Part shown: positions 1 through 13,021 of the stretch, piece after piece | How positions within the stretch are numbered: position 1 is the stretch's first letter | Layout of the letters: the number at the start of each line of letters is the position of its first letter | Assembly (NCBI GenBank): GCA_017402895.1 | Contig: JAFPLG010000044.1 | Location: forward strand, 1-14,067 | Source: Paludibacteraceae bacterium | GTDB taxonomy: Bacteria; Bacteroidota; Bacteroidia; Bacteroidales; Paludibacteraceae | Length of the DNA: 14,067 nucleotides | Direction: 5' to 3' | Made by a program: the position numbers and the translations under genes | The notes under the pieces: model-generated | Seen by the model: the letters and a program-made list of their open reading frames with translations, nothing else | Database searches by the model: none | What the model was told of the DNA's origin: nothing

Positions 1-1027
1 CATCAACGGATCGCTTTCGCTCAACCATAACTGGCGTACCGACCGCTTCTACTATGACAACGTGACAGCACGTGACTCGGTCGTACGTATCGGCGGAACA
101 ATCAAGGGAGGTCTTAACTATAAGTTCGCTCGCTACCACAACGTATTCGTCAATGCCGGCTTTATCTCCCGTGCACCGAAATACCAGGCTATCTATATGT
201 CGGTCAGCACCTCCAATGCTATCAACAACGAGGCGAAGAACGAGAAGATCGCCAGCGTAGAACTCGGTTACGGTTTCGAGAACCAGTATGCTTCGATCCA
301 TGTCAACGGTTACTTCACCGAGTGGATGGACAAGACCATGACCAAGTACGGCAACCTCTCCGATCCGGCTCAGACGCAGTTCTATATGAACATGACCGGC
401 GTCAATGCACGCCATATGGGTCTGGAGTTCGAAGCCAAGGCTCGTCCTACCAAGTGGCTCGAACTCAGCGCCATGGTTTCTCTGGGCGACTGGAAATGGG
501 ACAGCGACTCCGTCATCGGCCGTGCCTACGACGAACATGGCTTTGCCATGACAGCCGACGCACAGGTGACCGAGATAGGTGCTCCAGACCACTACTGGGC
601 TAAGATCAACATGAAGGGTATCCACGTAGGTGGCCAGGCACAAACGACGGCTAACTTCGGCATCCTATTCAAGCCGTTCAAGGGATTCCGCATCGGTGGT
701 GAGTATACCCTCTACGACCGTAACTACAGCTACTATAGCTTCTCTGGCTCCAACCTGACGCCGGGTAAGACGATGAATATCGTAGAGCCCTACCGCTGCC
801 CGCTGGGTGGAAGCCTCGACCTGCGTGCCAGCTACCAGTTTGAGATGGGTCCCATCCGTGCTACGATCGCCGGAAACGTGACCAACGTACTCAACCAGTA
901 CTACATCGAGAAAGCATGGTCGGCCAGCACCGCTACACAGACCGTTGCAGAGAATACCAAGGATAATATCTACTTCTTCTACAACAAGGGTCGTCAGTGG
1001 AACATCAGGTTAAAACTTCAGTTTTAA
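1..1027 (+). CDS. TonB-dependent outer membrane receptor, C-terminal part (5' end outside window)
   Basis: The reading frame is open from base 2 and gives 341 residues before TAA; the N-terminal signal, plug and early barrel lie upstream of the window. The visible part alternates short polar and aromatic-rich stretches typical of beta-strands and ends in RLKLQF, a terminal Phe as expected for a BamA-inserted barrel. The stretch VFVNAGFISRAPKYQAIY, followed by NNEAKNEKIASVELGYGF, is characteristic of the late barrel strands of TonB-dependent receptors (motif recognition). Family role: TonB/ExbBD-energised uptake of a large substrate across the outer membrane. The substrate cannot be read from this fragment. 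The next genes encode a lipoprotein, a secreted endonuclease and a small outer membrane protein, so a nucleic-acid or nucleotide substrate is plausible (inference). It is not followed by a SusD gene, which argues against an ordinary glycan locus. Confidence 0.88.
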   Translation, partial: INGSLSLNHNWRTDRFYYDNVTARDSVVRIGGTIKGGLNYKFARYHNVFVNAGFISRAPKYQAIYMSVSTSNAINNEAKNEKIASVELGYGFENQYASIHVNGYFTEWMDKTMTKYGNLSDPAQTQFYMNMTGVNARHMGLEFEAKARPTKWLELSAMVSLGDWKWDSDSVIGRAYDEHGFAMTADAQVTEIGAPDHYWAKINMKGIHVGGQAQTTANFGILFKPFKGFRIGGEYTLYDRNYSYYSFSGSNLTPGKTMNIVEPYRCPLGGSLDLRASYQFEMGPIRATIAGNVTNVLNQYYIEKAWSASTATQTVAENTKDNIYFFYNKGRQWNIRLKLQF

Positions 1028-1028
1028 C

Positions 1029-1086
1029 AGTTGAAAGTTTAGAATTTAAAGTTAAAAGAAGTTTTAAAGTTAAAAGTTAAAAAGTT
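1029..1086 (+). repeat. Degenerate AGTT(AAA) tandem repeat filling the gap to the lipoprotein gene
   Basis: AGTT recurs at 1029, 1036, 1050, 1060, 1068, 1075 and 1083, mostly 7 or 8 bp apart, separated by A-rich spacers. It fills the 59-nt gap between the receptor stop codon and the ATG at 1087 and replaces any recognisable ribosome binding site. The A-rich sequence before the ATG fits Bacteroidales translation starts, which lack Shine-Dalgarno pairing. Confidence 0.6.
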
Positions 1087-2433
1087 ATGAAAGCAAAATA
1101 TTTATTTTCGATAGTAGCTTTAGCGCTGGGTCTGACGGCTTGTGAGAACTATTTCGACGAGAAATACCTGGATAATGGCGATCCCTACATCAGCGTAGTC
1201 AAGACATACGACTACACCCTGACGACTGCGGATTATGCCACCATTGCCAACAACGCCACCAACAAGGCCATTGCCTATGAGACGGACTCCCTCAAGGGCC
1301 TCAAGAACCGCTACCAGAATGCGTTGGCGAACGTAGGCAAACAGGGTTACTTCAATTCTAATGCCACGGCTGACATGTATGCACCCGCGTTCATCTACAA
1401 CAAGTATCCGCAACTCGATCCGGGGTCGATATTCAACCTCACGTACCTCACCGACGACGGACTGCCTCCGTACCTGCGTGCCTACAATGCCGCTAGTCGT
1501 GTCGTGCTCGACGTGACCGACGAATCGCAGATCATTGCTAAGCTGCCGCAACCCGACGAGGGCGTCATCATTGGCGTCATCTACGACACCGACAAGGAGG
1601 TCTTCTACGAGTCGGCCGATGGCTACGCTTGGACCAAACTGACGCTGCCGGCTAACTTCCATCTGCTGCCTGCCGAGGCCAATGGACAAGTCGTAAAATG
1701 GCTGCTAGTCAACTTCCCCTATGCCGAGATCGACCAAGTGGAAGTCATGCTCTGGTACGACGAGACGGCTAAGCACTATATCGCCTATGAGTACACCTTC
1801 AACGGCGAGACATGGATCGCCAATACGGGCGTCGTAGAAGAGACGATGTCGTTCATACTCGATCAAAAGAAAGGGTGGGTTGCCAACCTCTCTACCTACT
1901 ACCAGCAGGCTGTGGCCGGCGACGGCAATATGGGTAAACTGACCATCCAGGACTTTGACCTCGAGGACGGAATCAGCTATATCTGGATGTTCGACAACCT
2001 CTATGGTATGAAGGGTACTGCATATGCCAAGGGTGGCCCGCACTACGGCGAGGGATGGTTCGTCACGCCTAAGATCAAGTTGAAGAAAGCCGTCAGCCCG
2101 GCATTGAGCTTCGACATGGCCATGAACTACGGTCCGCTGCCCGAAGACGGACGCTACGAGCAGGCTACCGTTTGGGTGTCTACCGATTATGCCGGTGATG
2201 TCAAGACAGCTACCTGGACCCAACTGCCATGGAATGAGTTCAACGGCTCAACCGGCTTCCCGGATGCCAACAGCTGGACGTTCTACAACACCGGCCGACT
2301 GGACCTGAGTCAGTGGAAGGACCAGATTATCTATATCGGTTTCCGCTACAAGAGTCTGCCGGGGCAGACCTGCTCGACCTGGGAGGTCAAGAATATCCTT
2401 GTCAACGAACCCGAAGAAGAAACCGCTGAATGA
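1087..2433 (+). CDS. Surface lipoprotein with C-terminal choice-of-anchor-J-like domain
   Basis: The 448-residue product starts with a lipoprotein signal peptide (MKAKYLFSIVALALGLTAC, lipid-bearing Cys19). The acidic pair D24-E25 shortly after the Cys fits the export signal that sends Bacteroidota lipoproteins to the cell surface. Residues about 40-270 form a region I do not recognise, rich in Tyr and Asp. From about residue 295 (IQDFDLEDGISYIWMFDN) to the end it resembles the choice-of-anchor J or DUF5017-type beta-sandwich of secreted Bacteroidales proteins, including GEGWFVTPKIKLKK and LSFDMAMNYG. The position between a TonB-dependent receptor and a secreted nuclease suggests a surface partner that binds the receptor's substrate, as SusD does in glycan systems (inference). 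Its TGA stop overlaps the ATG of the nuclease gene as ATGA, so translation is probably coupled. Confidence 0.75.
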   Translation: MKAKYLFSIVALALGLTACENYFDEKYLDNGDPYISVVKTYDYTLTTADYATIANNATNKAIAYETDSLKGLKNRYQNALANVGKQGYFNSNATADMYAPAFIYNKYPQLDPGSIFNLTYLTDDGLPPYLRAYNAASRVVLDVTDESQIIAKLPQPDEGVIIGVIYDTDKEVFYESADGYAWTKLTLPANFHLLPAEANGQVVKWLLVNFPYAEIDQVEVMLWYDETAKHYIAYEYTFNGETWIANTGVVEETMSFILDQKKGWVANLSTYYQQAVAGDGNMGKLTIQDFDLEDGISYIWMFDNLYGMKGTAYAKGGPHYGEGWFVTPKIKLKKAVSPALSFDMAMNYGPLPEDGRYEQATVWVSTDYAGDVKTATWTQLPWNEFNGSTGFPDANSWTFYNTGRLDLSQWKDQIIYIGFRYKSLPGQTCSTWEVKNILVNEPEEETAE

Positions 2434-3626
2434 TGAAACGAATTCTCATATCTATTGCCCTGTGCGCCCTCTCGTGGGGCGCCTGGGCTGTTGATATGCA
2501 GGCACACATGGGCTCGCGTGAAGCCCAAGAGACCTACAGTCAATACCTTGGAAAACAAGCCGCTTACTATACCGATACCTATGCACCGGAAGCCTTGCGT
2601 GCTCTGAGTGGCGACGACCTGTTTGGTGCCCTCAATACGCTCATGGGCAATACCTGCCGTATCGCCGAGACGCGCTATAGCTACGACAACCTGCGCAACC
2701 AGTACAAATATGTGGACAAAGATCTGAATACCAACGCCTATATCATCGGTTATTACGATGGCAGTTCGATTAATGGTTCGTGGGATAGTGGTAAGACATG
2801 GAACCGTGAGCACACCTGGCCGCAGTCGAAAGGCGCCGACAAGAGTCTGCCGATGGGCTACGACATGCAATCGGTTCGCCCTGCCTCTACGGCTGTGAAT
2901 AGCGAACGTGGCAATACGCCCTATGGCGAGTCGTCCAACTACTATGACCCCAATGTGATCTCAATCAACAATGCCCTCTACGTACAGACCAACCTCGGTT
3001 CGTACCGTGGCGATGCGGCACGCGTCATCCTCTACGACTATATCGTCTATGGTCAGGCCGGTGGTCACAAGAACAGTCTCTACAACGGCAATGCCCAACT
3101 GCTGAGCAAACTCGGAAAGAGTGGGGTGTTCGAGTCGATACCCGTCCTGCTCAAGTGGCATATGAACGACCCTGTCTCGCTCACCGAGATGGTTCGAAAC
3201 GATGGCGCAGCCAACTACCAGGGCAACCGTAATCCCTTTATCGACTATCCCGAACTGGCTATCCAGATGCTCAAGAATGCCAGTGGTGTTACCACCTACA
3301 GCGTCACCACCACTGGTGCCACCCTCTGGCCAGCATATACCCTGACGCTCAAAGCGGGCTTCATCGCCTATCTCGGTACACCCGACAACCGGCCTACCGA
3401 AGTGACCATCACCGGCGCTACCGGCAAGTACGATCCCGAGACAGGCCGACTGACGATCACTAATGTGACGGGTGCAGTGACAATCACGGCGGTCGGAACA
3501 GAGGCGCTCGAGCAGACGGAGGCGGAGCAGAAAGCCATCAAGACTATCTACAACGGACAAGTAATCATTATTCGCAATGGTAAAGCGTATACTACTCTCG
3601 GCGCTACTCTGGGTGACCTGCGTTAG
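2430..3626 (+). CDS. Secreted endonuclease I family nuclease with C-terminal Ig-like and sorting-type tail
   Basis: The 398-residue product has a cleavable signal peptide (MMKRILISIALCALSWGAWA). Residues about 60-285 carry the endonuclease I (EndA/NucM/Vvn) signature: WNREHTWPQS with E127 and His128, the likely general base; RPASTAVNSERGN with N157, R160 and N162; LLKWHMNDPV with H244; and QGNRNPFIDYPEL. These metal-dependent enzymes cut DNA and often RNA with little sequence preference. Residues about 288-357 form a small beta domain (VTITGATGKYDPETGRLTIT). The end, YNGQVIIIRNGKAYTTLG, resembles the short tail of many type IX-secreted or surface Bacteroidales proteins, so export beyond the outer membrane is likely (inference). 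An alternative in-frame start is the second ATG at 2433. The 3' end overlaps the next gene by 50 nt in another frame. Confidence 0.87.
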   Translation: MMKRILISIALCALSWGAWAVDMQAHMGSREAQETYSQYLGKQAAYYTDTYAPEALRALSGDDLFGALNTLMGNTCRIAETRYSYDNLRNQYKYVDKDLNTNAYIIGYYDGSSINGSWDSGKTWNREHTWPQSKGADKSLPMGYDMQSVRPASTAVNSERGNTPYGESSNYYDPNVISINNALYVQTNLGSYRGDAARVILYDYIVYGQAGGHKNSLYNGNAQLLSKLGKSGVFESIPVLLKWHMNDPVSLTEMVRNDGAANYQGNRNPFIDYPELAIQMLKNASGVTTYSVTTTGATLWPAYTLTLKAGFIAYLGTPDNRPTEVTITGATGKYDPETGRLTITNVTGAVTITAVGTEALEQTEAEQKAIKTIYNGQVIIIRNGKAYTTLGATLGDLR

Positions 3627-4350
3627 TACGGCTGTGGCGGGCACCAATCTGCAGGTCTACTACGACTTTGGTAGCCTCAATACGGTATGCGCCAACCAGC
3701 GAACCAACCGCGTCACGACCACGCTCGAACTCTTCTATCCCGACCCGTGGGGTAGTACGTTCGCGTTCGTTGATTTCGACTACAATATCAACCCGCAGGA
3801 CCCGCAGAATACACCCTTCATGGCCTACACGGAGATTGCACGCTGCCTGAATTTCTGGGGCAAGACAAAAGCCAAAGATCTGAGTATCCAGGTTGAGTAC
3901 AACGGTGGTCTTGGTATCTACAAGGATGCGGTGGGCGATATACGCGGCTATGCGATCAACCATGCGGCACTCGTCGGACTAAACTACTGCTTACACACGA
4001 AGGATTACAAGAATATCTTCAATCTGGAGTTGCTCTACAAGTATATCGTCGACGACTACAACAAACTGGCCAATCAGGCCCCGCTCCAGTTTACCTTTGT
4101 CTGGGGATGTGACGACTTCTGTACGGCTCCCGGTCTGCGCTTCTCTGGTTTCCTCGATGTATGGGGACAACGGAACGCTACGGGACAGTCCTTTGTGCTG
4201 CTCTCCGAACCCCAACTATGGTATAACGTGGGACGATGGTTCAAGTGCCCGTACCTAAGTATTGGCACCGAGATAGAGTTCTCGTACAACTTCTCCGGCC
4301 AGGGCTTCATGTGCAACCCATGCTTGGGTATCAAGTGGAACTTTGACTAA
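3577..4350 (+). CDS. DUF5020 family outer membrane protein, Tsx-like in size
   Basis: The 257-residue product starts MVKRILLSALLWVTCVSTAVAG, a signal peptide cut probably after Ala21, and continues NLQVYYDFGS. The rest matches what I recall of DUF5020: repeated strand-like segments (GSTFAFVDFDYN, AYTEIARCLNFW, VEYNGGLGIYKD, VLLSEPQLWYNVG, GTEIEFSYNFSG) and a C-terminal GIKWNFD. Length and strand pattern suit a small monomeric barrel of about 12 strands, like the nucleoside channel Tsx; equating the two functions is inference. The start at 3577 is required to include the signal peptide, although it lies inside the 3' end of the nuclease gene. Its place after a secreted nuclease would suit a channel for released nucleosides or nucleotides. 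Four internal Cys residues (about 15, 38, 89 and others) are unusual for an outer membrane protein. Confidence 0.75.
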   Translation: MVKRILLSALLWVTCVSTAVAGTNLQVYYDFGSLNTVCANQRTNRVTTTLELFYPDPWGSTFAFVDFDYNINPQDPQNTPFMAYTEIARCLNFWGKTKAKDLSIQVEYNGGLGIYKDAVGDIRGYAINHAALVGLNYCLHTKDYKNIFNLELLYKYIVDDYNKLANQAPLQFTFVWGCDDFCTAPGLRFSGFLDVWGQRNATGQSFVLLSEPQLWYNVGRWFKCPYLSIGTEIEFSYNFSGQGFMCNPCLGIKWNFD

Positions 4351-4379
4351 CGACCAACGACAAACGACCAACGACCAAC
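4344..4379 (+). repeat. CGACCAA heptamer tandem repeat in the gap before the methyltransferase gene
   Basis: Exact 7-bp units: TGACTAA (4344, a diverged unit containing the TAA stop of the preceding gene), CGACCAA (4351), CGACAAA (4358), CGACCAA (4365) and CGACCAA (4372), then CATGATC with the next start codon. The array is the whole 29-nt gap. The same heptamer occurs three more times inside the following gene (4891-4915) and once after it (5211-5217). Confidence 0.85.
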
Positions 4380-5201
4380 ATGATCTCCAAAGCGCAACTC
4401 AAAACATATCGTAGTCTTCACCAGAAGAAGTATCGCGACGAACTCGGTCTCTTCCTGGCCGAGGGGGAGAAGTGCGTCAACGAACTTCGCAAAGCCTTCG
4501 AACTCGAGGCGCTTATCACCGAGGAGGAAGTGGGACGCGTAGCTGTCGAACAACTCTCGTCTCTCCGCACCCCACAAGGTGTCATCGCCGTCTTCCGCAA
4601 ACCCTCTTTCAGTCCGGAGGACGGTCTTTCAGTGAATGAAATGAACGGTCCTTCAGCGAAGCGGTCTTTCAGTCCGAAGGACGGTCTAATACTGGCCTTG
4701 GACAGTATTCAGGATCCCGGCAACCTGGGCACGATCATTCGTACCTGCGACTGGTTCGGCGTGCACGATATCTTCTGTTCGCTCGACACGGCAGACTGCT
4801 ACAATCCCAAGGTGGTCCAGGCCACGATGGGTTCCCTTGCCCGCGTCCGTCTCCACTACGTGGACTTGCCTCAATGGCTCCATAGTCAATCGACCAACGA
4901 CCAACGACCAACGACTATCTACGGCACTCTGCTCGATGGCCGCGACATGTACGAAGTACTATCTAACAGCAAAGCGGTCCAACAGCGAAGCGGTCTATCA
5001 GCAGAGCGGTCTATCAGTCCGAAGGACGGTCACGCAGTAATCATCATGGGCAACGAGGGCAACGGTATCTCGCCCCAGGTGCGCCAATACATCACGCATC
5101 CCGTTCGTATTCCTTCGTATCCGCCCGAGGCAGAGACCTCTGAGAGTCTGAACGTAGCTATTGCTACGGCCGTCATCCTCTCGGAATTCCGAAGGCCATA
5201 A
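4380..5201 (+). CDS. SpoU/TrmH family RNA methyltransferase with repeat-derived insertions
   Basis: This 273-residue protein is an AdoMet-dependent 2'-O-methyltransferase of rRNA or tRNA; the exact nucleotide target cannot be told. The N-terminal part (1-75) is the RNA-binding substrate domain (LGLFLAEGEKCVNEL). The SPOUT catalytic domain shows motif 1, DPGNLGTIIRTCDWFG, with N115 and R121; motif 2, IIMGNEGNGIS (G224-G229); and motif 3, SESLNVAIATAV, with S256 and N258. All family-critical residues are present, so the enzyme is probably active. Three tracts depart from the family and coincide with repeats in the DNA: residues about 76-102, 171-179 and 195-217. They fall in the interdomain linker and in surface loops and make the protein some 20-35 residues longer than the Bacteroides homologues I recall. 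The ATG follows a CGACCAA array; a terminator follows the gene. Confidence 0.88.
   Translation: MISKAQLKTYRSLHQKKYRDELGLFLAEGEKCVNELRKAFELEALITEEEVGRVAVEQLSSLRTPQGVIAVFRKPSFSPEDGLSVNEMNGPSAKRSFSPKDGLILALDSIQDPGNLGTIIRTCDWFGVHDIFCSLDTADCYNPKVVQATMGSLARVRLHYVDLPQWLHSQSTNDQRPTTIYGTLLDGRDMYEVLSNSKAVQQRSGLSAERSISPKDGHAVIIMGNEGNGISPQVRQYITHPVRIPSYPPEAETSESLNVAIATAVILSEFRRP
4606..4685 (+). repeat. Modular CTTTCAG...CGGT repeat, cluster 1 (inside methyltransferase gene)
   Basis: Four adjoining units begin YTTCAG-like and end CGGT, with different middles: 4606-4625 (20 nt, middle TCCGGAGGA), 4626-4649 (24 nt, middle TGAATGAAATGAA), 4650-4665 (16 nt, middle CGAAG) and 4666-4685 (20 nt, middle TCCGAAGGA). 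The middles TCCGGAGGA and TCCGAAGGA are small inverted repeats. The tract is translated in frame as the linker between the N-terminal and catalytic domains. Confidence 0.85.
4891..4915 (+). repeat. Intragenic CGACCAA heptamer array
   Basis: Three perfect CGACCAA units (4891, 4898, 4905) plus CGAC. Three units make 21 nt, which keeps the reading frame and encodes part of STNDQRPTT (residues 171-179). The same heptamer fills the gap before this gene. Confidence 0.88.
4963..5030 (+). repeat. Modular CNNCAG...CGGT repeat, cluster 2 (inside methyltransferase gene)
   Basis: Four adjoining units: CTAACAGCAAAGCGGT (4963), CCAACAGCGAAGCGGT (4979), CTATCAGCAGAGCGGT (4995), each 16 nt, and a 20-nt unit at 5011-5030 whose middle is again TCCGAAGGA. 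The last unit differs from the last unit of cluster 1 only in its second and third-position region (CTATCAG versus CTTTCAG). Translated as residues about 195-217, just before the GNEGNG motif. Confidence 0.86.
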
Positions 5202-5218
5202 TATCCTAAACGACCAAA

Positions 5219-5246
5219 AATCTCGCTTCCGGGCGGGATTTTTTTT
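5219..5246 (+). terminator. Rho-independent terminator after the methyltransferase gene
   Basis: TCTCGC (5221-5226) pairs with GCGGGA (5233-5238) with one G-T wobble, extended by two A-T pairs, loop TTCCGG, followed by eight T residues (5239-5246). It separates the upstream array from the tamL-like transcription unit. One lone CGACCAA lies just before it at 5211. Confidence 0.8.
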
Positions 5247-5247
5247 G

Positions 5248-5263
5248 TATATGCTTGCATATA
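5248..5263. promoter_or_regulatory. Perfect dyad overlapping the -33 element
   Basis: TATATGC-TT-GCATATA is a perfect 7-bp inverted repeat with a 2-bp spacer. It covers the TTG of the -33 element (5255-5257), a place where an operator would act. It also lies directly after the terminator T-tract, so part of the match may be chance in AT-rich DNA. Confidence 0.4.
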
Positions 5264-5285
5264 TCAAAAATTTTCACTACCTTTG
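5255..5285 (+). promoter_or_regulatory. Bacteroidales-type promoter for the envelope operon
   Basis: A -7 element TACCTTTG (5278-5285, consensus TAnnTTTG) lies 20 bp after CTTG at 5254-5257 (-33 element, consensus TTTG). This is the housekeeping sigma architecture of Bacteroidota. Transcription should begin near 5289-5293, only a few bases before the ATG at 5297. Spacing and sequence closely match the second promoter at 13059-13090. Confidence 0.82.
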
Positions 5286-5296
5286 CGCCCTGAATT

Positions 5297-7567
5297 ATGT
5301 TTCGGGTAGTGCGGACATATAAAAACGGGCTTTTGGCAGCACTTTTAGTGCTGGCTTTCTCGGCATGTAATACCACCAAGTTTGTGCCCGAGGGCGAATA
5401 CCTGCTCAACAAGGCCAAGGTCGTCATGGACGACACCAAGGATGTGACCGCTTCCGAGATGACTTCTTATCTGCGTCAGAAGCAGAACACCGAGATATTC
5501 GGCTTCTGGAAACTCCAACTCCACGTCTACAATACCGCCCCGCGCGATACGTCCTCCAAGGCCAATAAGTTCTTTGCCAACAATGCTCATAAGATGGGCG
5601 AGGCGCCTGAGATATACGACGAGGCACTCACCGAAGCCTCGATGAAGCAGATTCGGCTGGCAATGAACAACCGTGGCTATTTCAATGCCGAGGTGGATAC
5701 CGTCAAGACCTATGGCAAGCGCAATCCTCAGAAACTCAACCTCACTTACCATGTCACGGGCAACACGCCGTACCGCATAGCCGACTATACGACGCTGCTT
5801 GAGCACGAACTGGTTGACTCGTTGGCCCGGACCGAGCATTGTCTGGTTCACTCGGGTGAGATATACAACTCCTCAACGCTTGACGAGGAACGCCAGCGTA
5901 TCACGACCGCCATGCGTAATCGTGGTTACTATTATTACGATAAGTCGCTGCTCGCCTTTGCGGCCGATAGTTCGAATGGAAACCATACCGTGCGTCTCCA
6001 ACTCCACGAGACCCACTATCGCGGTATTATTCCGGATAGCGTTATGGACAAGGTCTATATCCGTCAAACCATCCGCAAGGTCTATTTCCATGTGGATTAT
6101 GACATGAATCGTCTGCCCGAAGACCTGATCCTGCACGAGGATAGCGACGAGAACGGCTATGTTTATTCCTACGTTGGCATACCTCTGTTGCGCCACCGGG
6201 TGCTTCAGCGCAAGTGTGTCATCCGCCCGGGCGATAGGTTCAGCGAATGGCGACTCGAGCGCACGTATACCAATCTCAATGCGCTGGGTCCGATCAAGTA
6301 CGTAGATATCGCCTTTTATCCTGTCGATAGCAGTCATCTCGACTGTCATGTCACCATCTCGCGCAGCAAGATCCATTCTGTCTCGGCCGAGGTCGAGGGA
6401 ACGTTCTCTGCCGGCGACTGGGGCATAGCGGCCGGAGTGGGGTATATGAACAAGAATATCTTCCACGGTGCGGAGCAGTTCACTCTCAACGGACGAGGCA
6501 GTTATGAGTGGCGTCAGAATGGCGGACGAGCTATTGAGGCGCGTGTGGATGCCGGACTTCAGTGGCCGAACCAACTCAAGATCAATATCGCCTACAACTA
6601 CCAGCAACGGCCAGACGAGTACACCCGTACGCTGGCGAATGCAGGGCTATCGTATACCGTGCCCCGCAAACCCCGTTCGCGGTGGACCCACCAGTTCAAC
6701 CTCATCGACATCAACTATATCTACCTGCCCTGGATGTCCGACCAGTTCCGCAAGGACTTTATCGAGAAATCCAGTGTGCTGCGGGCTTCCTACGAAGACC
6801 ATTTTATCCTTGATTGGAGCTATTCGGGTTCCTATTCGGGCTACAACTCCCGTCAGCCCTATCGCTCGTATCTGGATTTTCGCTACTCGATTGAGACGGC
6901 CGGTAACTTCCTGTACGGTGTCGGTAAGTTGGCCAATATGAAGCAGAATAGCGATGGTTCGTATGTGCTGTGGAATACACCCTTTGCCCAGTATGCCAAG
7001 GGGGACGTCAATCTGACTTACCACCAGATATTCAACCCCAAGCACCAACTCGTCTACCATGCCGCACTCGGTATCGTCGTGCCGTATCTGAATGCCTCGA
7101 CCGTACCGTTTGAGAAGCGTTATTTCGCCGGCGGTAGCAATAGTGTGCGTGGTTGGCAAGCCCGTACTCTCGGACCAGGTACGTTCCGTGGCGACGGCAA
7201 TACGTTGGTCTACGACCTACAGGCTGGAGATATCCGACTGGACCTCAACCTCGAGTATCGATGGAAAGTGTGGAAATACCTGGAACTGGCCGCCTTTACC
7301 GATGCCGGTAATATATGGACCATACGCGACTACGAACAGCAACCCGGAGGCTTATTCCGCTGGGATAAGTTCTACGAGCAGATAGCCTGGAGTTACGGTG
7401 TTGGTGCGCGCATCGATTTGAGTCTGTTTATCTTCCGTATCGACTTTGGCGTGAAGCTCTACGACCCCAGTCTGATATCTGCCGGCACCCAGTGGCGAAC
7501 CGCTGGCAACGGCCTGAACTGGAAGGATGATATGACCTTCCACTTCGCAATCGGTCACCCGTTCTAG
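5297..7567 (+). CDS. tamL: TamA/BamA family outer membrane lipoprotein (TamL-like)
   Basis: The 756-residue product has a lipoprotein signal (LLVLAFSAC, Cys24) followed by NTTKFVPEGEYLLNKAKV, a start typical of the Bacteroidota lipid-anchored TamA relative called TamL. Residues about 30-360 should hold the POTRA-like domains (repeated MRNRGYYYYDKS / MNNRGYFNAEVD type segments). The C-terminal half is a Bac_surface_Ag barrel: FAGGSNSVRGW with the conserved V617-R618-G619 of lid loop 6, then LDLNLEYRWKVWKYLELAAFTDAGNIW and IDFGVKLYDPS; it ends in Phe. Family role: insertion or export of outer membrane and surface proteins, with TamB in the inner membrane; no tamB gene is visible here. It is the first gene after its own promoter and is separated from rnhB by a 42-nt repeat gap. 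The start at 5297 leaves almost no 5' leader. Confidence 0.85.
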   Translation: MFRVVRTYKNGLLAALLVLAFSACNTTKFVPEGEYLLNKAKVVMDDTKDVTASEMTSYLRQKQNTEIFGFWKLQLHVYNTAPRDTSSKANKFFANNAHKMGEAPEIYDEALTEASMKQIRLAMNNRGYFNAEVDTVKTYGKRNPQKLNLTYHVTGNTPYRIADYTTLLEHELVDSLARTEHCLVHSGEIYNSSTLDEERQRITTAMRNRGYYYYDKSLLAFAADSSNGNHTVRLQLHETHYRGIIPDSVMDKVYIRQTIRKVYFHVDYDMNRLPEDLILHEDSDENGYVYSYVGIPLLRHRVLQRKCVIRPGDRFSEWRLERTYTNLNALGPIKYVDIAFYPVDSSHLDCHVTISRSKIHSVSAEVEGTFSAGDWGIAAGVGYMNKNIFHGAEQFTLNGRGSYEWRQNGGRAIEARVDAGLQWPNQLKINIAYNYQQRPDEYTRTLANAGLSYTVPRKPRSRWTHQFNLIDINYIYLPWMSDQFRKDFIEKSSVLRASYEDHFILDWSYSGSYSGYNSRQPYRSYLDFRYSIETAGNFLYGVGKLANMKQNSDGSYVLWNTPFAQYAKGDVNLTYHQIFNPKHQLVYHAALGIVVPYLNASTVPFEKRYFAGGSNSVRGWQARTLGPGTFRGDGNTLVYDLQAGDIRLDLNLEYRWKVWKYLELAAFTDAGNIWTIRDYEQQPGGLFRWDKFYEQIAWSYGVGARIDLSLFIFRIDFGVKLYDPSLISAGTQWRTAGNGLNWKDDMTFHFAIGHPF

Positions 7568-7603
7568 AAGTCTAGAAATATAGACATCTAGTCGACTAGT
7601 AGA
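7564..7603 (+). repeat. Exact 8-bp period CTAG tandem repeat between tamL-like gene and rnhB
   Basis: CTAG or ATAG recurs at 7564, 7572, 7580, 7588 and 7596, a strict 8-bp period (units CTAGAAGT, CTAGAAAT, ATAGACAT, CTAGTCGA, CTAGTAGA). The first unit contains the TAG stop of the preceding gene. CTAGTCGACTAG (7588-7599) is also a perfect palindrome. Confidence 0.82.
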
Positions 7604-7609
7604 AAGAAA

Positions 7610-8224
7610 ATGCTAAATGCTCAAATGATACCCCATGTCCTGGAGGCCGGATGCGACGAGGCAGGACGAGGACCGCTGGCAGGCAGTGTGTTTGCAGCCG
7701 CTGTCATCTTCGATCCTGAGCGAACCGACTGGACCAGTCTCGCGGAGCTCAACGACTCGAAGCAACTGACCGACCATCAGAGATATGCCCTCCGTCCTGT
7801 CATCGAACGCGAAGCACTGGCATGGGCAGTGGTGGAGGTCACGCCCGCGGAGATCGACCGACTCAATATCCTCTGGGCGTCCATCACGGGCATGCAGCGC
7901 GCATTGGACCAACTCTCGGTTCGTCCGCAACATATCCTGGTCGATGGGAATAAGTGGCGACCCTACGTGCCGGAAGGAGAAATTTTGGAGGTGCCGGCAC
8001 GAACTGTGGTCAAGGGGGATGGAAAATATATGTCGATAGCAGCAGCCAGTGTGCTCGCTAAGACCTATCGCGACGACTATATGCAGCGGCTCCACCGGGA
8101 GTACCCGCAGTATGGCTGGAATACCAATATGGGGTATCCTACAGCCGAACACTATGCGGCGCTCCGCAAGTACGGTCCTACGCCCTACCATAGGAAGAGT
8201 TTTAATCTCAAAATTGAAAAATAA
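7610..8224 (+). CDS. rnhB: Ribonuclease HII
   Basis: A 204-residue enzyme that cuts the RNA strand of RNA-DNA hybrids and removes single ribonucleotides from DNA. The acidic catalytic set is visible: D16 and E17 in AGCDEAGRGPLAG, D112 in ILVDGNKW and D155 in SIAAASVLAKTYRD. VVKGDGKYMSIAAAS is the usual substrate-binding segment, and the end (MGYPTAEHYAALRKYGPTPYHRKSF) is the normal family end. Length is normal. The start is uncertain: ATG at 7610 gives MLNAQMIPHV, but these first codons lie in an AAATGCT heptamer repeat (7608, 7615, then AAATGAT at 7623), so the in-frame ATG at 7625 (MIPHVLEAG) may be the true one. It lies in an otherwise envelope-related operon. Confidence 0.95.
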   Translation: MLNAQMIPHVLEAGCDEAGRGPLAGSVFAAAVIFDPERTDWTSLAELNDSKQLTDHQRYALRPVIEREALAWAVVEVTPAEIDRLNILWASITGMQRALDQLSVRPQHILVDGNKWRPYVPEGEILEVPARTVVKGDGKYMSIAAASVLAKTYRDDYMQRLHREYPQYGWNTNMGYPTAEHYAALRKYGPTPYHRKSFNLKIEK

Positions 8225-8251
8225 AATCGTAAATCGCCAAATCGAAAATTG
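8211..8251 (+). repeat. AAATCG/AAATTG degenerate tandem repeat between rnhB and sppA
   Basis: AAATTG at 8211, AAATCG at 8224, 8231 and 8239, and AAATTG at 8246 are spaced 13, 7, 8 and 7 bp. The array includes the last codons and TAA stop of rnhB and most of the 35-nt gap to the next start. Confidence 0.65.
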
Positions 8252-8259
8252 AATATATT

Positions 8260-10074
8260 ATGTGCTTACGAATTAAACGTCTCAGTGCTGAAGAGGCTCA
8301 GCAACTGGAAAACAACCTCTCTGGTCAACAACCCCAGCAACCGGTGCGTCGCCGTGGCTGCTTGCGTGGCTGTCTATGGGCCATGATTATCTACTTTGCC
8401 CTGAGTGCTATCTTCGGCCTGCTTTTTGGAAGTATGTTCTCATCTCAGCAGGTGAAACTCGAGGCCAACACTGTCTATCGTATGGATATGAAGGGTACGG
8501 TCGTGGAGCAGGGACGTCCTGCCGATCCTTGGGCTGACTTGCTCCAGGAGATGCCGGGCAACATGATGAGTGTGGACGAGACGGTTGGTCTCGACCAGAT
8601 ACTGGAGAATATCCGCCTCGCCAAGGAGGACGACCGCATACTGGGTATCTATCTATGTGGCGGTGAGCTCAACGTAGGTCAGGCGGCTGCCAAGGAGATC
8701 CGTGAGGCGCTGATCGATTTCAAGAAGTCGGGTAAGTGGATCGTGGCCTATGCCGATGCGTATAGCCAGATCAACTATTATATCGCTTCGGTGGCCGACC
8801 GCGTCTGCCTCAATCCCGTAGGTGAGGTCAATTGGAACGGACTCTCTGCCGAGCGCATGTACTATACCCGCCTGCTCGAGAAGATCGGCGTAGAGATGCA
8901 GATCCTGAAGGTCGGTACCTTCAAGTCGGCTGTTGAGCCGTATTTCCGCACTAGTATGTCGGACGAGGACCGTCTGCAGACCCAACTCTATATGGGGGGC
9001 GTATGGGACGATGTTGTGGCCGGCGTAGCCGCTTCGCGTAAACTCAGTGCCGACACCCTCAATGCGTATGCCGACGAGTATATGGGACTGCAGGCTCAGC
9101 AGAAGTACCTCGACTATGGCTTGGTTGACACCCTCGTTTATGCCTTCCAGATGGATAGCATCTTGCGTGTCTATGCCGGCGTAGAGGAATATGAGAAGAT
9201 ATCCACCGCCGAACTGGCCTCCGTATCTCGTCCGGCTTCTAAAGCCCAGGACGAGGTGGCTGTGCTCTATGCCGAGGGTGAAATTACCGATGAAACGGGC
9301 AACGGCATCGTCGGTAAGGAGATGCTCCGCACGATTCGCAAGATAGCCAAGAACGAGGATGTCCGTGCTGTCGTACTGCGTGTCAACAGCCCGGGCGGTA
9401 GTGCCGATGCCAGCGAGCAGATATGGGGCGCACTCCAGTCGCTACGCGAGAAGGGAATACCGGTAGTGGTATCTATGGGCGACGTGGCTGCTTCGGGCGG
9501 ATATTATATCTCCTGCGGTGCCGACTATATCTATGCCGAACCTACGACTATCACGGGTTCTATTGGTATCTTCGGTATCGTGCCGAACGCAAGTAAGATA
9601 CGCGATAAGATAGGTGTCGATGTCGATGGTGTCTCCACCAACCGCCACTCCGATATGCAGTCTAACATGATCTTCCGCGGCATGAATCCCGAGGAGACCC
9701 AAATGATGCAAACGATGGTGGAGCGCGGTTACGACCTGTTCACGCGTCGTTGTGCTGAGGGACGCCATGTATCGCAAGACTCCATCAAGGCCATCGGTGA
9801 GGGCCGTGTGTGGCTCGGCAAGGATGCTAAGCGTCTGGGGCTCATCGATGCGTTTGGCGATATCGATAAGGCTATTGAGAAAGCCGCTGCGCTGGCCAAA
9901 CTCGAGACCTACCGCCTGAGCTACTATCCCGAGGTCAAAGACCCGATCGAGGAGATGCTTGAGAACCTCATGAACGGCAACCCGACGCCCGAAGAGAAAC
10001 TCATCCAAAAGATGCGTACGCTCTGTTCCAAACCGCGTATCATGGCCCTCATGCCCGAGGTTGAAATCAAATAA
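8260..10074 (+). CDS. sppA: Signal peptide peptidase SppA, long (67 kDa) type
   Basis: The 604-residue product is a membrane-anchored serine protease with a Ser-Lys dyad that degrades cleaved signal peptides. It has the duplicated architecture of the long type. The N-terminal half carries the catalytic Lys (K222 in VGTFKSAVEPYFR, as in the E. coli GTYKSAVEPF motif). The C-terminal half carries the nucleophile (S412 in GDVAASGGYYIS) and the oxyanion-region segment VNSPGGSADAS (about 375-385). One membrane segment lies at about 40-58 (WAMIIYFALSAIFGLLFG). The 40 residues before it are odd: Gln-rich and Arg/Cys-rich (SGQQPQQPVRRRGCLRGC), longer than the short cytoplasmic start I expect; ATG at 8260 is the best start because the frame is coding-like throughout. 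It is followed after 30 nt by lpxK. Confidence 0.93.
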   Translation: MCLRIKRLSAEEAQQLENNLSGQQPQQPVRRRGCLRGCLWAMIIYFALSAIFGLLFGSMFSSQQVKLEANTVYRMDMKGTVVEQGRPADPWADLLQEMPGNMMSVDETVGLDQILENIRLAKEDDRILGIYLCGGELNVGQAAAKEIREALIDFKKSGKWIVAYADAYSQINYYIASVADRVCLNPVGEVNWNGLSAERMYYTRLLEKIGVEMQILKVGTFKSAVEPYFRTSMSDEDRLQTQLYMGGVWDDVVAGVAASRKLSADTLNAYADEYMGLQAQQKYLDYGLVDTLVYAFQMDSILRVYAGVEEYEKISTAELASVSRPASKAQDEVAVLYAEGEITDETGNGIVGKEMLRTIRKIAKNEDVRAVVLRVNSPGGSADASEQIWGALQSLREKGIPVVVSMGDVAASGGYYISCGADYIYAEPTTITGSIGIFGIVPNASKIRDKIGVDVDGVSTNRHSDMQSNMIFRGMNPEETQMMQTMVERGYDLFTRRCAEGRHVSQDSIKAIGEGRVWLGKDAKRLGLIDAFGDIDKAIEKAAALAKLETYRLSYYPEVKDPIEEMLENLMNGNPTPEEKLIQKMRTLCSKPRIMALMPEVEIK

Positions 10075-10076
10075 CT

Positions 10077-10104
10077 TTAGCCTATAACCATTAGCCTTTA
10101 TTCC
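10077..10104 (+). repeat. TTAGCCT repeat in the sppA-lpxK gap
   Basis: TTAGCCT occurs at 10077 and 10091, exactly 14 bp (two heptamers) apart, with ATAACCA between and TTATTCC after. It fills the 30-nt gap up to the lpxK ATG. Two copies are weak evidence alone; the other gaps make it meaningful. Confidence 0.45.
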
Positions 10105-11130
10105 ATGAAATGGACTGATCTCATCACCGCTCCGCTTAGCGGATTGTATGCCACCGGAGTCTGGCTGCGCCACCTCCTCTACGATGAGCATGTCTTCATC
10201 TCTCACGAGGTGGATATACCTACTATATGCGTGGGCAACCTGGCCGTAGGTGGAACGGGTAAGACGCCCCATGTCGAGGCACTGATCCGTATGCTCTCGC
10301 CTCACTACAAGGTGGCGGTTCTCTCGCGTGGTTATCGCCGTCGTACCCATGGCTTTGTGCTGGCTGATGAGAAATCCACCGAGCGCACGATTGGTGATGA
10401 GGCGATGCTGATCTATCTTAAGTTCCCCGAGGTGCGTGTGGCGGTGTGCGAAGACCGTGTACGCGGCATTCGCCAGATCCAAAACCAGTGCCCCGAGGTG
10501 GAGGTTATCCTGCTAGATGATGCCTTCCAGCACCGCCGTCTCCAGGCGGGCTATAATATCGTCCTCACGCCCTACGACCGCCTATACAAGGACGACCATA
10601 TGTTGCCGTGGGGACGTCTGCGCGACCTCAAGCAGCGTGTGCTCAAGGCCCATGCGATTATCGTGACCAACTGTCCCGAGGATATACAACCTATCGACAA
10701 GCGCGTAGTGGACAACCATCTGCGTCTGCCGGCCTATATGAAGCTCTATTTCTCGCATATCGCCTACGACCAAATACCCTTCACCGGGCGTCCGTTGGTG
10801 GTCACCGGTATTGCCAACCCGCAGTACCTTATGCAGCATATCCGTCGCCATTATCCCGGTGCCGATCTGCTGGCCTTCCCCGACCATCATCGCTACAGCG
10901 AGCGTGACCAGCAGCTTATTCAGGATCGTGCTGCCGGGTTCGATTTTATCCTCACTACAGAGAAGGACCTGATGCGCCTCCACGAGACGCCGCTCTATTC
11001 CCGTTTGGTCGATCGTATTTGCGCATTGCCTATCCGCGTGGAGATAGACAACGATGGACGCTCGCTCGAGGATGAACTCCTAACCTATATTCGCGAAACC
11101 CAGAAACGATGCACTTCCTCTCTCTCATAA
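10105..11130 (+). CDS. lpxK: Tetraacyldisaccharide 4'-kinase (lipid A synthesis)
   Basis: The 341-residue product transfers phosphate from ATP to the 4' position of the lipid A disaccharide at the inner membrane. The Walker A loop is GNLAVGGTGKTP (G44-P55). Then come LSRGYRRRTHGF (about 73-84), GDEAMLI with D98-E99, equivalent to the catalytic region of LpxK, and the Walker B-like LLDDAFQHRRL (D138-D139). The C-terminal domain shows TGIANPQYL, FPDHHRYSERD and LTTEKDLMRL, all usual for LpxK. Length is normal. An amphipathic N-terminal helix (residues 1-25) suits peripheral membrane binding. It overlaps the ABC exporter gene by 22 nt, mirroring the msbA-lpxK pairing in Enterobacteria in reverse order, and follows sppA, a neighbour I recall from other Bacteroidales. 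Confidence 0.95.
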   Translation: MKWTDLITAPLSGLYATGVWLRHLLYDEHVFISHEVDIPTICVGNLAVGGTGKTPHVEALIRMLSPHYKVAVLSRGYRRRTHGFVLADEKSTERTIGDEAMLIYLKFPEVRVAVCEDRVRGIRQIQNQCPEVEVILLDDAFQHRRLQAGYNIVLTPYDRLYKDDHMLPWGRLRDLKQRVLKAHAIIVTNCPEDIQPIDKRVVDNHLRLPAYMKLYFSHIAYDQIPFTGRPLVVTGIANPQYLMQHIRRHYPGADLLAFPDHHRYSERDQQLIQDRAAGFDFILTTEKDLMRLHETPLYSRLVDRICALPIRVEIDNDGRSLEDELLTYIRETQKRCTSSLS

Positions 11131-12974
11131 GACGTTTTGTGCCGCCTTATCGCGGACTGATGGGATTGAATATACTCTTCAACCTGCTGAGCACGATCTT
11201 GTCGCTCTTCTCGTTTGCGGCCATTATCCCCGTGCTCAAGATCCTGTTCGGACTGAGCGAGTCGGGCGTGAGTCATCATGACCTGTCATCGGCTGTCGGA
11301 CTGGAGCAGTGGTTGCAGTTCGCTAAGGACAACCTCTACTATTGGCTCGATGGTCAGATCAGTCTCCATGGCGGAGGCTATGTGCTCTTTATGCTCGGAC
11401 TTTTCTTGGTGCTTATGACCGGCCTTAAGTGCCTCACGGCTTGGCTGGCCAACTACTATATGGTGCCTATCCGAACGGGCGTGTTGCGTGACTTGCGCCG
11501 CCAGCTCTATGACAAGATGGTCTCGCTGCCGATCGGCTATTTCACCGAGGAACACCGCGGCGATGTCATGTCGCGCATGACCAACGATGTCAACGAGGTG
11601 GAAGCCAGTATCATGTCGGCTCTCGACGTGCTCTTCAAGGACCCCGTGATGATTCTCATCTACCTGCTGACGCTCTTCCTTATCTCGTGGCAATTGACGC
11701 TCTTTGTCATCATCCTGCTGCCTGTGGCGGGCTTCTTGATTGGCCGTATCGGCCGAAGCCTCAAGCGAGCTTCACGTCGTGGCCAGGAGCAGAATGCGGA
11801 GATACTCACCCAGATTGACGAGACACTGGGCGGACTGCGTGTGGTCAAGGCCTTTAATGCCGAGCAGAAACTCAGCGACCGTTTCCTGCGCCTCATCAAC
11901 GATACGCGCCAGACCTTCAACCGCATCAATCGTCGCTACTACCTGGCACATCCCGTGTCCGAGTTTCTCGGTACGGCCCTGATAGCCGTTATCCTTTGGT
12001 TTGGCGGCGTGCTGATTTTGCGGGGAACGAGCCTCATCGATGCCGCTACGTTTATCTACTATCTCGTTATCTTCTATTCGATTATCAACCCGGCAAAGGA
12101 TCTGAGCAAGGCCGGTTACGGCATACGTCGCGGTCAGGCCGCACTGGAGCGTATCGACCGCATTCTGCAGACCGAATCTACGATTCGTCAGTCGTCCGAC
12201 CCGTTGCCGCTGAGCGACTTTACCGATGCCATCCGCTACGACCATGTCTCGTTCCATTACGCAGACGACCGCCCTGTATTGCGCGATATCGACCTCACGA
12301 TTCGCAAGGGCCAGATGGTTGCCCTCGTGGGCCAGTCGGGTAGTGGTAAGACTACGATGGCCGACCTCTTGCCGCGGTTCTATGATACAATTCGCGGACG
12401 CGTCACAATCGACGGCGTTGATGTGCGCGATGTCTCTACGCGTGACCTGCGTGCCCTCATGGGCATTGTCAACCAGGAGGCGATTCTTTTCAACGACACG
12501 TTCTATCGTAATATCACCTTTGGAGTGGATACATCCCAGCCTGCACCGAACGGACTTACCTGGCCCGAGGCGGTTGAGCAAGCCGCCCGTATCGCCAATG
12601 CCCATGACTTCATCATGGCTACGCCGGATGGGTACGAGACCTCGATTGGTGACCGCGGAAGCCGTCTGTCCGGAGGACAGCGTCAGCGCATCAGCATAGC
12701 GCGTGCGATACTGAAGAACCCGCCTATTCTGATTCTGGATGAGGCTACGTCGGCGCTGGATACCGAGTCGGAGAAACTGGTACAAGAGGCGCTCGAGAAC
12801 CTGATGCGCGATCGCACCACGCTGGTCGTAGCGCATCGTCTGTCTACGATTCGCCATGCCGACCTCATCTGTGTACTCCACGAGGGACGGATTGTTGAGC
12901 AGGGACGCCACGAAGAGCTCCTCGCCCTCAATGGCTACTACACCCGCCTCGTTGAAATGCAATCGGCAAAATAA
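11109..12974 (+). CDS. ABC exporter, MsbA-like (probable lipid A-core flippase)
   Basis: The 621-residue product is a half-transporter with an N-terminal type IV transmembrane domain and a C-terminal ATPase. Six hydrophobic segments lie in residues about 15-320, with a polar loop (45-95) between the first two that is longer than in E. coli MsbA. The coupling region shows LRDLRRQLYDKMVSLPIGYF and GDVMSRMTNDVNEVE. The nucleotide-binding domain has Walker A GQSGSGKTT (408-416), signature LSGGQ (520-524), Walker B ILILDEA (D544, E545) and the H-loop VVAHRLSTI. The ATG at 11109 lies inside the end of lpxK. The direct link with lpxK supports transport of lipid A or rough LPS, but exporters of this subfamily also move peptides and drugs, so the substrate is inference. 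No terminator is visible after its stop codon. Confidence 0.87.
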   Translation: MHFLSLIRRFVPPYRGLMGLNILFNLLSTILSLFSFAAIIPVLKILFGLSESGVSHHDLSSAVGLEQWLQFAKDNLYYWLDGQISLHGGGYVLFMLGLFLVLMTGLKCLTAWLANYYMVPIRTGVLRDLRRQLYDKMVSLPIGYFTEEHRGDVMSRMTNDVNEVEASIMSALDVLFKDPVMILIYLLTLFLISWQLTLFVIILLPVAGFLIGRIGRSLKRASRRGQEQNAEILTQIDETLGGLRVVKAFNAEQKLSDRFLRLINDTRQTFNRINRRYYLAHPVSEFLGTALIAVILWFGGVLILRGTSLIDAATFIYYLVIFYSIINPAKDLSKAGYGIRRGQAALERIDRILQTESTIRQSSDPLPLSDFTDAIRYDHVSFHYADDRPVLRDIDLTIRKGQMVALVGQSGSGKTTMADLLPRFYDTIRGRVTIDGVDVRDVSTRDLRALMGIVNQEAILFNDTFYRNITFGVDTSQPAPNGLTWPEAVEQAARIANAHDFIMATPDGYETSIGDRGSRLSGGQRQRISIARAILKNPPILILDEATSALDTESEKLVQEALENLMRDRTTLVVAHRLSTIRHADLICVLHEGRIVEQGRHEELLALNGYYTRLVEMQSAK

Positions 12975-12976
12975 CT

Positions 12977-13021
12977 GTCTGACATGTCCGACCCGTCCGA
13001 CTCGTCCTACAGGTCCGACAT
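12977..13021 (+). repeat. Exact 9-bp period GTCCGAC tandem repeat
   Basis: Units begin at 12977 (GTCTGACAT), 12986 (GTCCGACCC), 12995 (GTCCGACTC), 13004 (GTCCTACAG) and 13013 (GTCCGACAT), a strict 9-bp period. All copies point the same way, so no hairpin forms and it is not a terminator. It follows the ABC exporter stop codon directly. Confidence 0.85.

Follow-up and report, generated by a model that had tools for sequence, protein, structure and literature searches.

The stretch of DNA analyzed here, in the following called the window, comprises 14,067 nucleotides and corresponds to the entire contig C144 in a Paludibacteraceae assembly of 1.25 Mb, which consists of 185 contigs and is 59% complete. 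Ten of its co-directional genes were looked up and encode a partial TonB-dependent receptor, a DUF5017 protein, an Endonuclease I, a DUF5020 protein, a SpoU-family methyltransferase, TamL, RNase HII, SppA, LpxK, and an MsbA-like transporter that scores below the MsbA cut-off. The nearest named records in an alignment query with SppA, i.e., uncultured Bacteroidales and one Paludibacteraceae record from sheep abomasum, are 62–64% identical. Several gaps between the genes of the window are occupied by short tandem arrays (Table 1). No known structured RNA element of Rfam matches the window at gathering scores.

Table 1. Tandem arrays of the window and the gene hosting one of them (TRF, Tandem Repeats Finder).
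Feature	Positions	Strand	Basis
AGTT-A-rich array, period 7 (7/8)	1024..1087	+	TRF; lag test on 1029-1086
CGACCAA array, period 7	4344..4379	+	TRF at 4345-4379; lag test
SpoU-family methyltransferase gene	4380..5201	+	Pfam SpoU_methylase, 1.8e-29
CGACCAA unit in frame within the SpoU CDS	4891..4915	+	TRF; lag test; SpoU alignment
Period-8 array, CTAG core with variable 4-nt spacers	7564..7603	+	Lag test; absent from TRF list
AAATCG-like array, period 7/8	8211..8251	+	Lag test; TRF 8223-8253
TTAGCCT weak repeat, period 7/14, sppA/lpxK gap	10075..10104	+	Lag test; absent from TRF list
GTCCGAC plus 2 variable nt, period-9 array	12977..13021	+	Lag test; TRF 12977-13020

The original prediction had stated that each untranslated gap of this gene series is built from its own tandem repeat with a period of 7–9 bp. 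In a lag test, for which the best lag between 5 and 12 was compared with 2000 dinucleotide shuffles of each stretch, four of the six stretches named are clearly above the shuffles. At 4344-4379 (period exactly 7), 7564-7603 (period 8), and 12977-13021 (period 9) none of the 2000 shuffles reaches the observed match, and 1029-1086, for which about 7–8 bp had been proposed, has a best period of 7 (p 0.0055). The signal is modest at 8211-8251, where 7 is the best period and 8 nearly equal (p 0.021), and weak at 10077-10097, for which 14 bp had been proposed (p 0.16, as compared to p 0.0145 for the whole gap). Four of the six stretches are also listed by TRF as 7–9 bp arrays, and the phasing at the other two, 7564 and 10077, therefore rests on the lag test.

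The term untranslated proved inaccurate, since the stretches at 4344, 7564, and 8211 begin within the upstream ORF and its stop codon (4348-4350, 7565-7567, and 8222-8224, respectively) is crossed by the array. The first array of the window extends from the stop codon (1025-1027) with which the gene for the TonB-dependent receptor ends up to the following ATG. In the second, the upstream stop lies inside the first unit and the end of the array adjoins the ATG of SpoU; the CTAG array opens with the stop codon of tamL, and the AAATCG-like array extends from the last codons of rnhB into the gap. The GTCCGAC array is located directly 3′ of the transporter stop codon (12972-12974), and thus at that end of a long gap rather than in a short operon gap.

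Nor does each gap possess a unit of its own, because CGACCAA occurs again within the SpoU CDS, in a variable loop corresponding to columns 191-203 in an alignment of 14 SpoU proteins, and elsewhere in the genome. A three-unit CGACCAA pattern with at most two mismatches yields 19 matches representing 10 places on nine contigs, two of these places being in the window, and a unique unit per gap was therefore rejected genome-wide. All 19 matches are on the plus strand of the contigs and none on the minus strand. The SpoU gene also contains, at 4605-4687 and 4962-5017, longer repeats of 16–20 bp with hairpin-like words, e.g., AGTCCGAAGGACGGTC, and similar words are encountered at L105:4589-4641, L091:3853-3935, and in other gaps of the genome.

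For the wider analysis, genes were called with a home-made caller, and the assignment to gap or CDS is erroneous in some cases. The sample of the window's own genome consists of 40 contigs, six of which (the window's included) were chosen for the CGACCAA pattern, so that own-genome densities are biased upward; the stretches from the genus and those of two long contigs were chosen independently of arrays, and the genus pool amounts to 1.17 Mb, own genome included. Among 78 short co-directional gaps (20–150 nt) of the own-genome sample, autocorrelation confirms the predicted excess at 7 bp (z 13.7) and at 8 bp (z 5.2) but not at 9 bp (z 0.3). The match at lag 7 is 0.379 versus 0.281 in shuffled gaps, and lag 14 reaches z 6.2. 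With a slightly different gene model, z at lag 7 is 16.6 for the own genome (90 gaps) and 15.4 for the genus (104 gaps). A 9-bp class was discarded, as lag 9 in the short co-directional gaps of the genus is also at background (z 0.8), although single 9-bp arrays do exist (window 12977; L071, L078). In the window every short gap is periodic, but in the genome sample the best lag exceeds z 4 in only 24 of the 78 gaps, 22 of them at lag 7 or 8 (shuffles, about 2 in all). Across 324,711 bases of the own genome, 42 non-redundant arrays of period 7 are listed by TRF, as compared to 0.2 per dinucleotide shuffle (5 shuffles); the short co-directional gaps of the genus (16.3 kb) contain 34 of period 7, versus 0 after shuffling.

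Outside the genus, where the samples of gaps are small, z at lag 7 is 7.6 for rumen Bacteroidales, 6.0 for Prevotella, 4.4 for Mucilaginibacter, 3.5 for Parabacteroides and kin, 3.3 for Bacteroides and kin, 2.1 for other families of the order (20 loci), 1.7 for Flavobacteriales (7 gaps), 0.8 for Marinilabiliaceae and kin, 0.6 for Paludibacter (8 gaps), and −0.7 for both Muribaculaceae and kin and other Bacteroidota. In 100 kb of E. coli K-12, period-7/8 arrays cover no base of any gap class. The spread of the arrays over lineages is patchy. Four Mucilaginibacter loci (L173, L184, L196, L207), far from the genus of the window, have similar arrays, also in convergent gaps, with period 8 about as frequent as period 7 (6 and 5 rows), and three of the seven Mucilaginibacter loci (L159, L183, L187) have none.

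Of the sequence in the 314 short co-directional gaps of the genus pool, 15.0% belongs to period-7/8 arrays (0.1% after shuffling), as compared to 1.6% in 83 long co-directional, 4.0% in 47 convergent, and 1.1% in 80 divergent gaps; shuffled coverage ranges from 0.0 to 0.2% over the gap classes. In 53 of 105 cases, arrays of period 7–9 have their start no more than 1 nt away from the upstream stop, with 32.7 expected from random placement. Where at least 10 nt of slack are available, 20 of 57 arrays do so versus 4.3 expected and a maximum of 12 in 2000 placements. At the other side, 27 of the 105 arrays end within 1 nt of the ATG (32.6 expected), and among those with slack 3 of 57 (4.3 expected). 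A selected spacer role at coupled starts, as had been suggested originally, is thus not supported: the arrays anchor to the stop and not to the start codon, and similar arrays are found inside proteins. Furthermore, the phase of the unit carries on into the end of the upstream gene. When gaps with N nearby are left out, the positions from −1 to −7 are above permuted gene ends (z 2.7–4.0; 55 period-7 arrays) with one exception, position −3, which is the invariant T of the stop codon.

The proposal of a local generating process is supported by related species, in which the same gap has a different unit or lacks an array altogether. Phase-variable simple sequence repeats are marked by changes in copy number between strains of one species; the arrays were compared here between species pairs, as the collections used comprise one genome per species. 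The gene order tamL-rnhB-sppA-lpxK-abc is preserved in most of the 20 loci fetched from the genus. In 7 of 19 loci (the window, L071, L078, L080, L081, L082, L083) the tamL-rnhB gap contains different arrays, and in five (L073, L076, L077, L084, L089) it is at most 7 nt long or the genes overlap. Ten matched proteins of L071 and L076 are 77–99% identical, and a divergent gap of 35 nt has the same length in both, with 28 of 35 bases kept; meanwhile, operon arrays have been exchanged, lengthened, or are missing. In one gap, L071, L076, and L081 have a common leader ahead of the ATG; between the stop and this leader, L071 possesses a period-8 array and L076 an array of period 7 with another unit, and L081 has no array. 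Replacement is not universal, however, since the sppA-lpxK arrays of L071 and L076 are homologous and differ in length.

Confinement to intergenic DNA, a criterion of our own and not a published one, does not describe these arrays, as at a TRF score of at least 40 the 99 period-7 arrays of the genus pool are split between gaps (49) and called CDS (50). Among the 72 period-7/14 arrays in CDS, 55 are at least 40 nt away from both gene ends. In the genus, SpoU genes repeatedly harbor heptamer arrays in frame: 10 of the 14 aligned SpoU proteins have in-frame arrays of period 7–9, which are located in three variable segments at about columns 87-117 (5 proteins), 181-205 (8), and 218-247 (2), and the SpoU proteins of L074, L079, L082, and L072 have no array at threshold. 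For a test of conservation, at least three homologs were available for 23 of 72 genes with internal arrays. Residues encoded by arrays are 12% identical and 20% gapped versus 69% and 5% for the rest of the proteins (17 arrays, 13 conserved genes), 10 of these 13 period-7/14 genes being SpoU as judged by locus and length (L131 by length alone). Period-12 arrays in CDS were dismissed as ordinary, since their identity (0.63; 8 arrays) is on a par with that of the remaining protein (0.67).

With a probability of about 0.6, we consider the arrays to be the trace of an ongoing, lineage-boosted tandem duplication of 7–8 bp that is kept where changes in length are tolerated. A local, slippage-like duplication that favors steps of 7 bp over those of 8 bp would convert X-U-Y to X-U-U-Y, leaving both X-U and U-Y intact. 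Such an event would account for the tendency of arrays to start at the stop codon and for units that continue the end of the upstream gene, and also for the different units of individual gaps and species. In the variable loops of proteins, arrays would survive if the frame is kept and stops are absent. Duplication or slippage is thus the presumed generator, and tolerance rather than selection seems to keep the arrays. Some findings count against this explanation. Of the 105 arrays, 52 do not start at a stop, and on the start side, positions +1, +4, +6, and +7 are in excess at period 7 as well. Also, the variation found inside an array clusters by phase (variance 0.0245 versus 0.0148, sd 0.0008; 84 arrays), which could be caused by the copying of mutated units, and CTAG or GTCCGAC cores with spacers that are all different look odd under plain decay. 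Period-8 arrays with a CTAG core and four variable bases in between are present at L131:9328, L211:16504, L212:10181, and L216:513 in addition to the window, and they retain the C besides the TAG stop.

A further finding not predicted by purely local seeding is that units are shared. The 99 period-7 arrays represent 63 canonical units and form 64 identical pairs versus about 11 in two nulls (maximum 23); between species there are 39 identical pairs versus 9–10, and 388 pairs are within one mismatch versus 166–176. STRR sequences are defined by one or few fixed units. The contrast to them that had been drawn was too strong, as the same units come back more often than by chance, both in one species and in different ones, but 63 units among 99 arrays do not conform to the few fixed units of STRR or TAACTGA-type repeats either. 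The restricted vocabulary, the 10 places with CGACCAA, and the constant cores with varied spacers would be consistent with a dispersed repeat family or a binding site, in which a limited set of heptamer words is copied between loci or bound by an RNA- or DNA-binding protein, a reading put forward for the TAACTGA repeats of Beggiatoaceae. We regard this as unlikely in view of the number of different units, the other units occupying the same gaps in relatives, the array phase that runs into the upstream gene, and the missing anchoring at start codons.

Alternatively, the arrays might be selected as a translation buffer, a stop-bearing unit repeated every 7 or 8 nt providing stops in all three frames after a gene and so catching read-through or frameshifted ribosomes, or aiding termination and reinitiation at the next gene. 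Stops in the consensus unit of arrays with at least three units are indeed biased to the sense strand (67 of 84 versus 40 of 84 antisense; discordant, 35 versus 8), yet 17 of the 84 arrays lack a sense stop. The 69 period-7 arrays, a count of rows that includes one N run (L130, where it gave rise to a false row at period 7 and another at period 8), contain 277 sense versus 100 antisense stops, with 203 sense stops in shuffled sequence; gaps without arrays contain 459 and 408, respectively. TGA is kept at 114 of 125 positions, but TAA at 122 of 173, no better than other triplets (0.73). A sense stop is present in the unit of 30 of 41 gap arrays versus 13 of 50 CDS arrays (p 8e-6), the lower frequency in CDS being what a coding filter would predict. 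Heptamer arrays in coding loops and convergent gaps are not expected from such a buffer, the same gaps of relatives do without arrays, and seeding at a stop codon already yields stop content, which makes this explanation quite improbable. That the arrays are assembly errors of metagenome bins or a consequence of mismatch-repair loss is highly improbable. The genus is represented mostly by genomes assembled from metagenomes, and repeats are known to be hazardous for assembly, but stop-anchored arrays come from many independent assemblies, and the named strains Mucilaginibacter glaciei (L184) and M. conchicola (L196) have period 8–9 arrays (L159 and L183 have none). Loss of mismatch repair was rejected, since mutS1 and mutL are above cut-off in 35 and 33, respectively, of 37 genus genomes, several of which are incomplete.

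A second class of arrays, whose period is 11 (and 22) and whose units are specific to the locus, is common in all gap classes and nearly absent from CDS, examples from the genus being L089:3257-3378, L074:17505-17548, and L222:17186-17226. These period-11 arrays are distributed over short co-directional (8), long co-directional (14), convergent (7), and divergent gaps (6) and CDS (2), and the corresponding numbers for period 7 are 34, 4, 4, 1, and 50. The ratio of period 7 to period 11 is thus 34:8 in short co-directional gaps versus 5:20 in long co-directional and divergent gaps (p 1.6e-6), a contrast that counts against the favored duplication reading insofar as one uniform process does not explain it. 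It is conceivable, though doubtful, that the duplication step is set by the activity of the DNA, with 7–8 bp in transcribed or translated DNA, such as coding loops and the operon gaps adjoining stop codons, and 11 bp in promoter-bearing and other long gaps. If so, the heptamer signature would be a by-product of transcription-linked DNA transactions, about one helical turn would be the step elsewhere, and both the seven and the location in operons would be accounted for.

This genus of gut bacteria offers a strong case with internal controls, which include the same gaps with and without arrays, coding loops, anchoring at stops, the presence of mismatch-repair genes, and the contrast of 7 versus 11 bp by context. 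The unexplained preference of bacteria for seven-base repeats becomes easier to test, and such repeats should not be taken as regulatory sites by default.

Among open-licence PMC papers, none was found that describes stop-anchored heptamer arrays with units specific to each locus, and as far as this literature shows, the anchoring at stops, the independent turnover, and the arrays in coding loops are new aspects. The sections of the SPADE survey on period 7 (PMC6344855) describe tandem heptamers as widespread in prokaryotes and mostly reported from between genes, and according to the authors nothing clearly points to the function of this periodicity. The arrays studied here have the excess of period 7 in intergenic DNA in common with these repeats. 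They differ in that their unit varies by locus and species, they are stop-anchored, they occur in frame within variable protein loops, and period 11 is found in other gaps. The TAACTGA direct repeats of Beggiatoaceae, some Cyanobacteria, and five Bacteroidetes are similar according to the pertinent sections of that report (PMC4679880), being intergenic heptamers with a few arrays inside ORFs, with some gaps containing other heptamers and with relatives lacking them. In contrast, they consist of one fixed unit located mostly just upstream of start codons, whereas the arrays here have many units and, given slack, adjoin the stop in 20 and the start codon in 3 of 57 cases. The GGGAATC-type heptamers of Xanthomonas and Nostoc, as characterized in the relevant part of PMC4692102, are likewise degenerate and enriched between genes within a lineage; they form a single G-rich, quadruplex-capable unit family, whereas gap-array units here are varied and A-rich. 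In the portions of PMC9879509 that deal with the tandem repeats of Borgs, these repeats are described as independent in origin, fast evolving, A-enriched, present in gaps as well as in ORFs, and able to begin within the end of an ORF; all of these traits are shared by the arrays described here. The Borg units, however, are perfect, about 20 nt long in the examples given, and divisible by three in ORFs, whereas the present units are degenerate and keep their 7 bp even inside ORFs, as in SpoU and other conserved genes.
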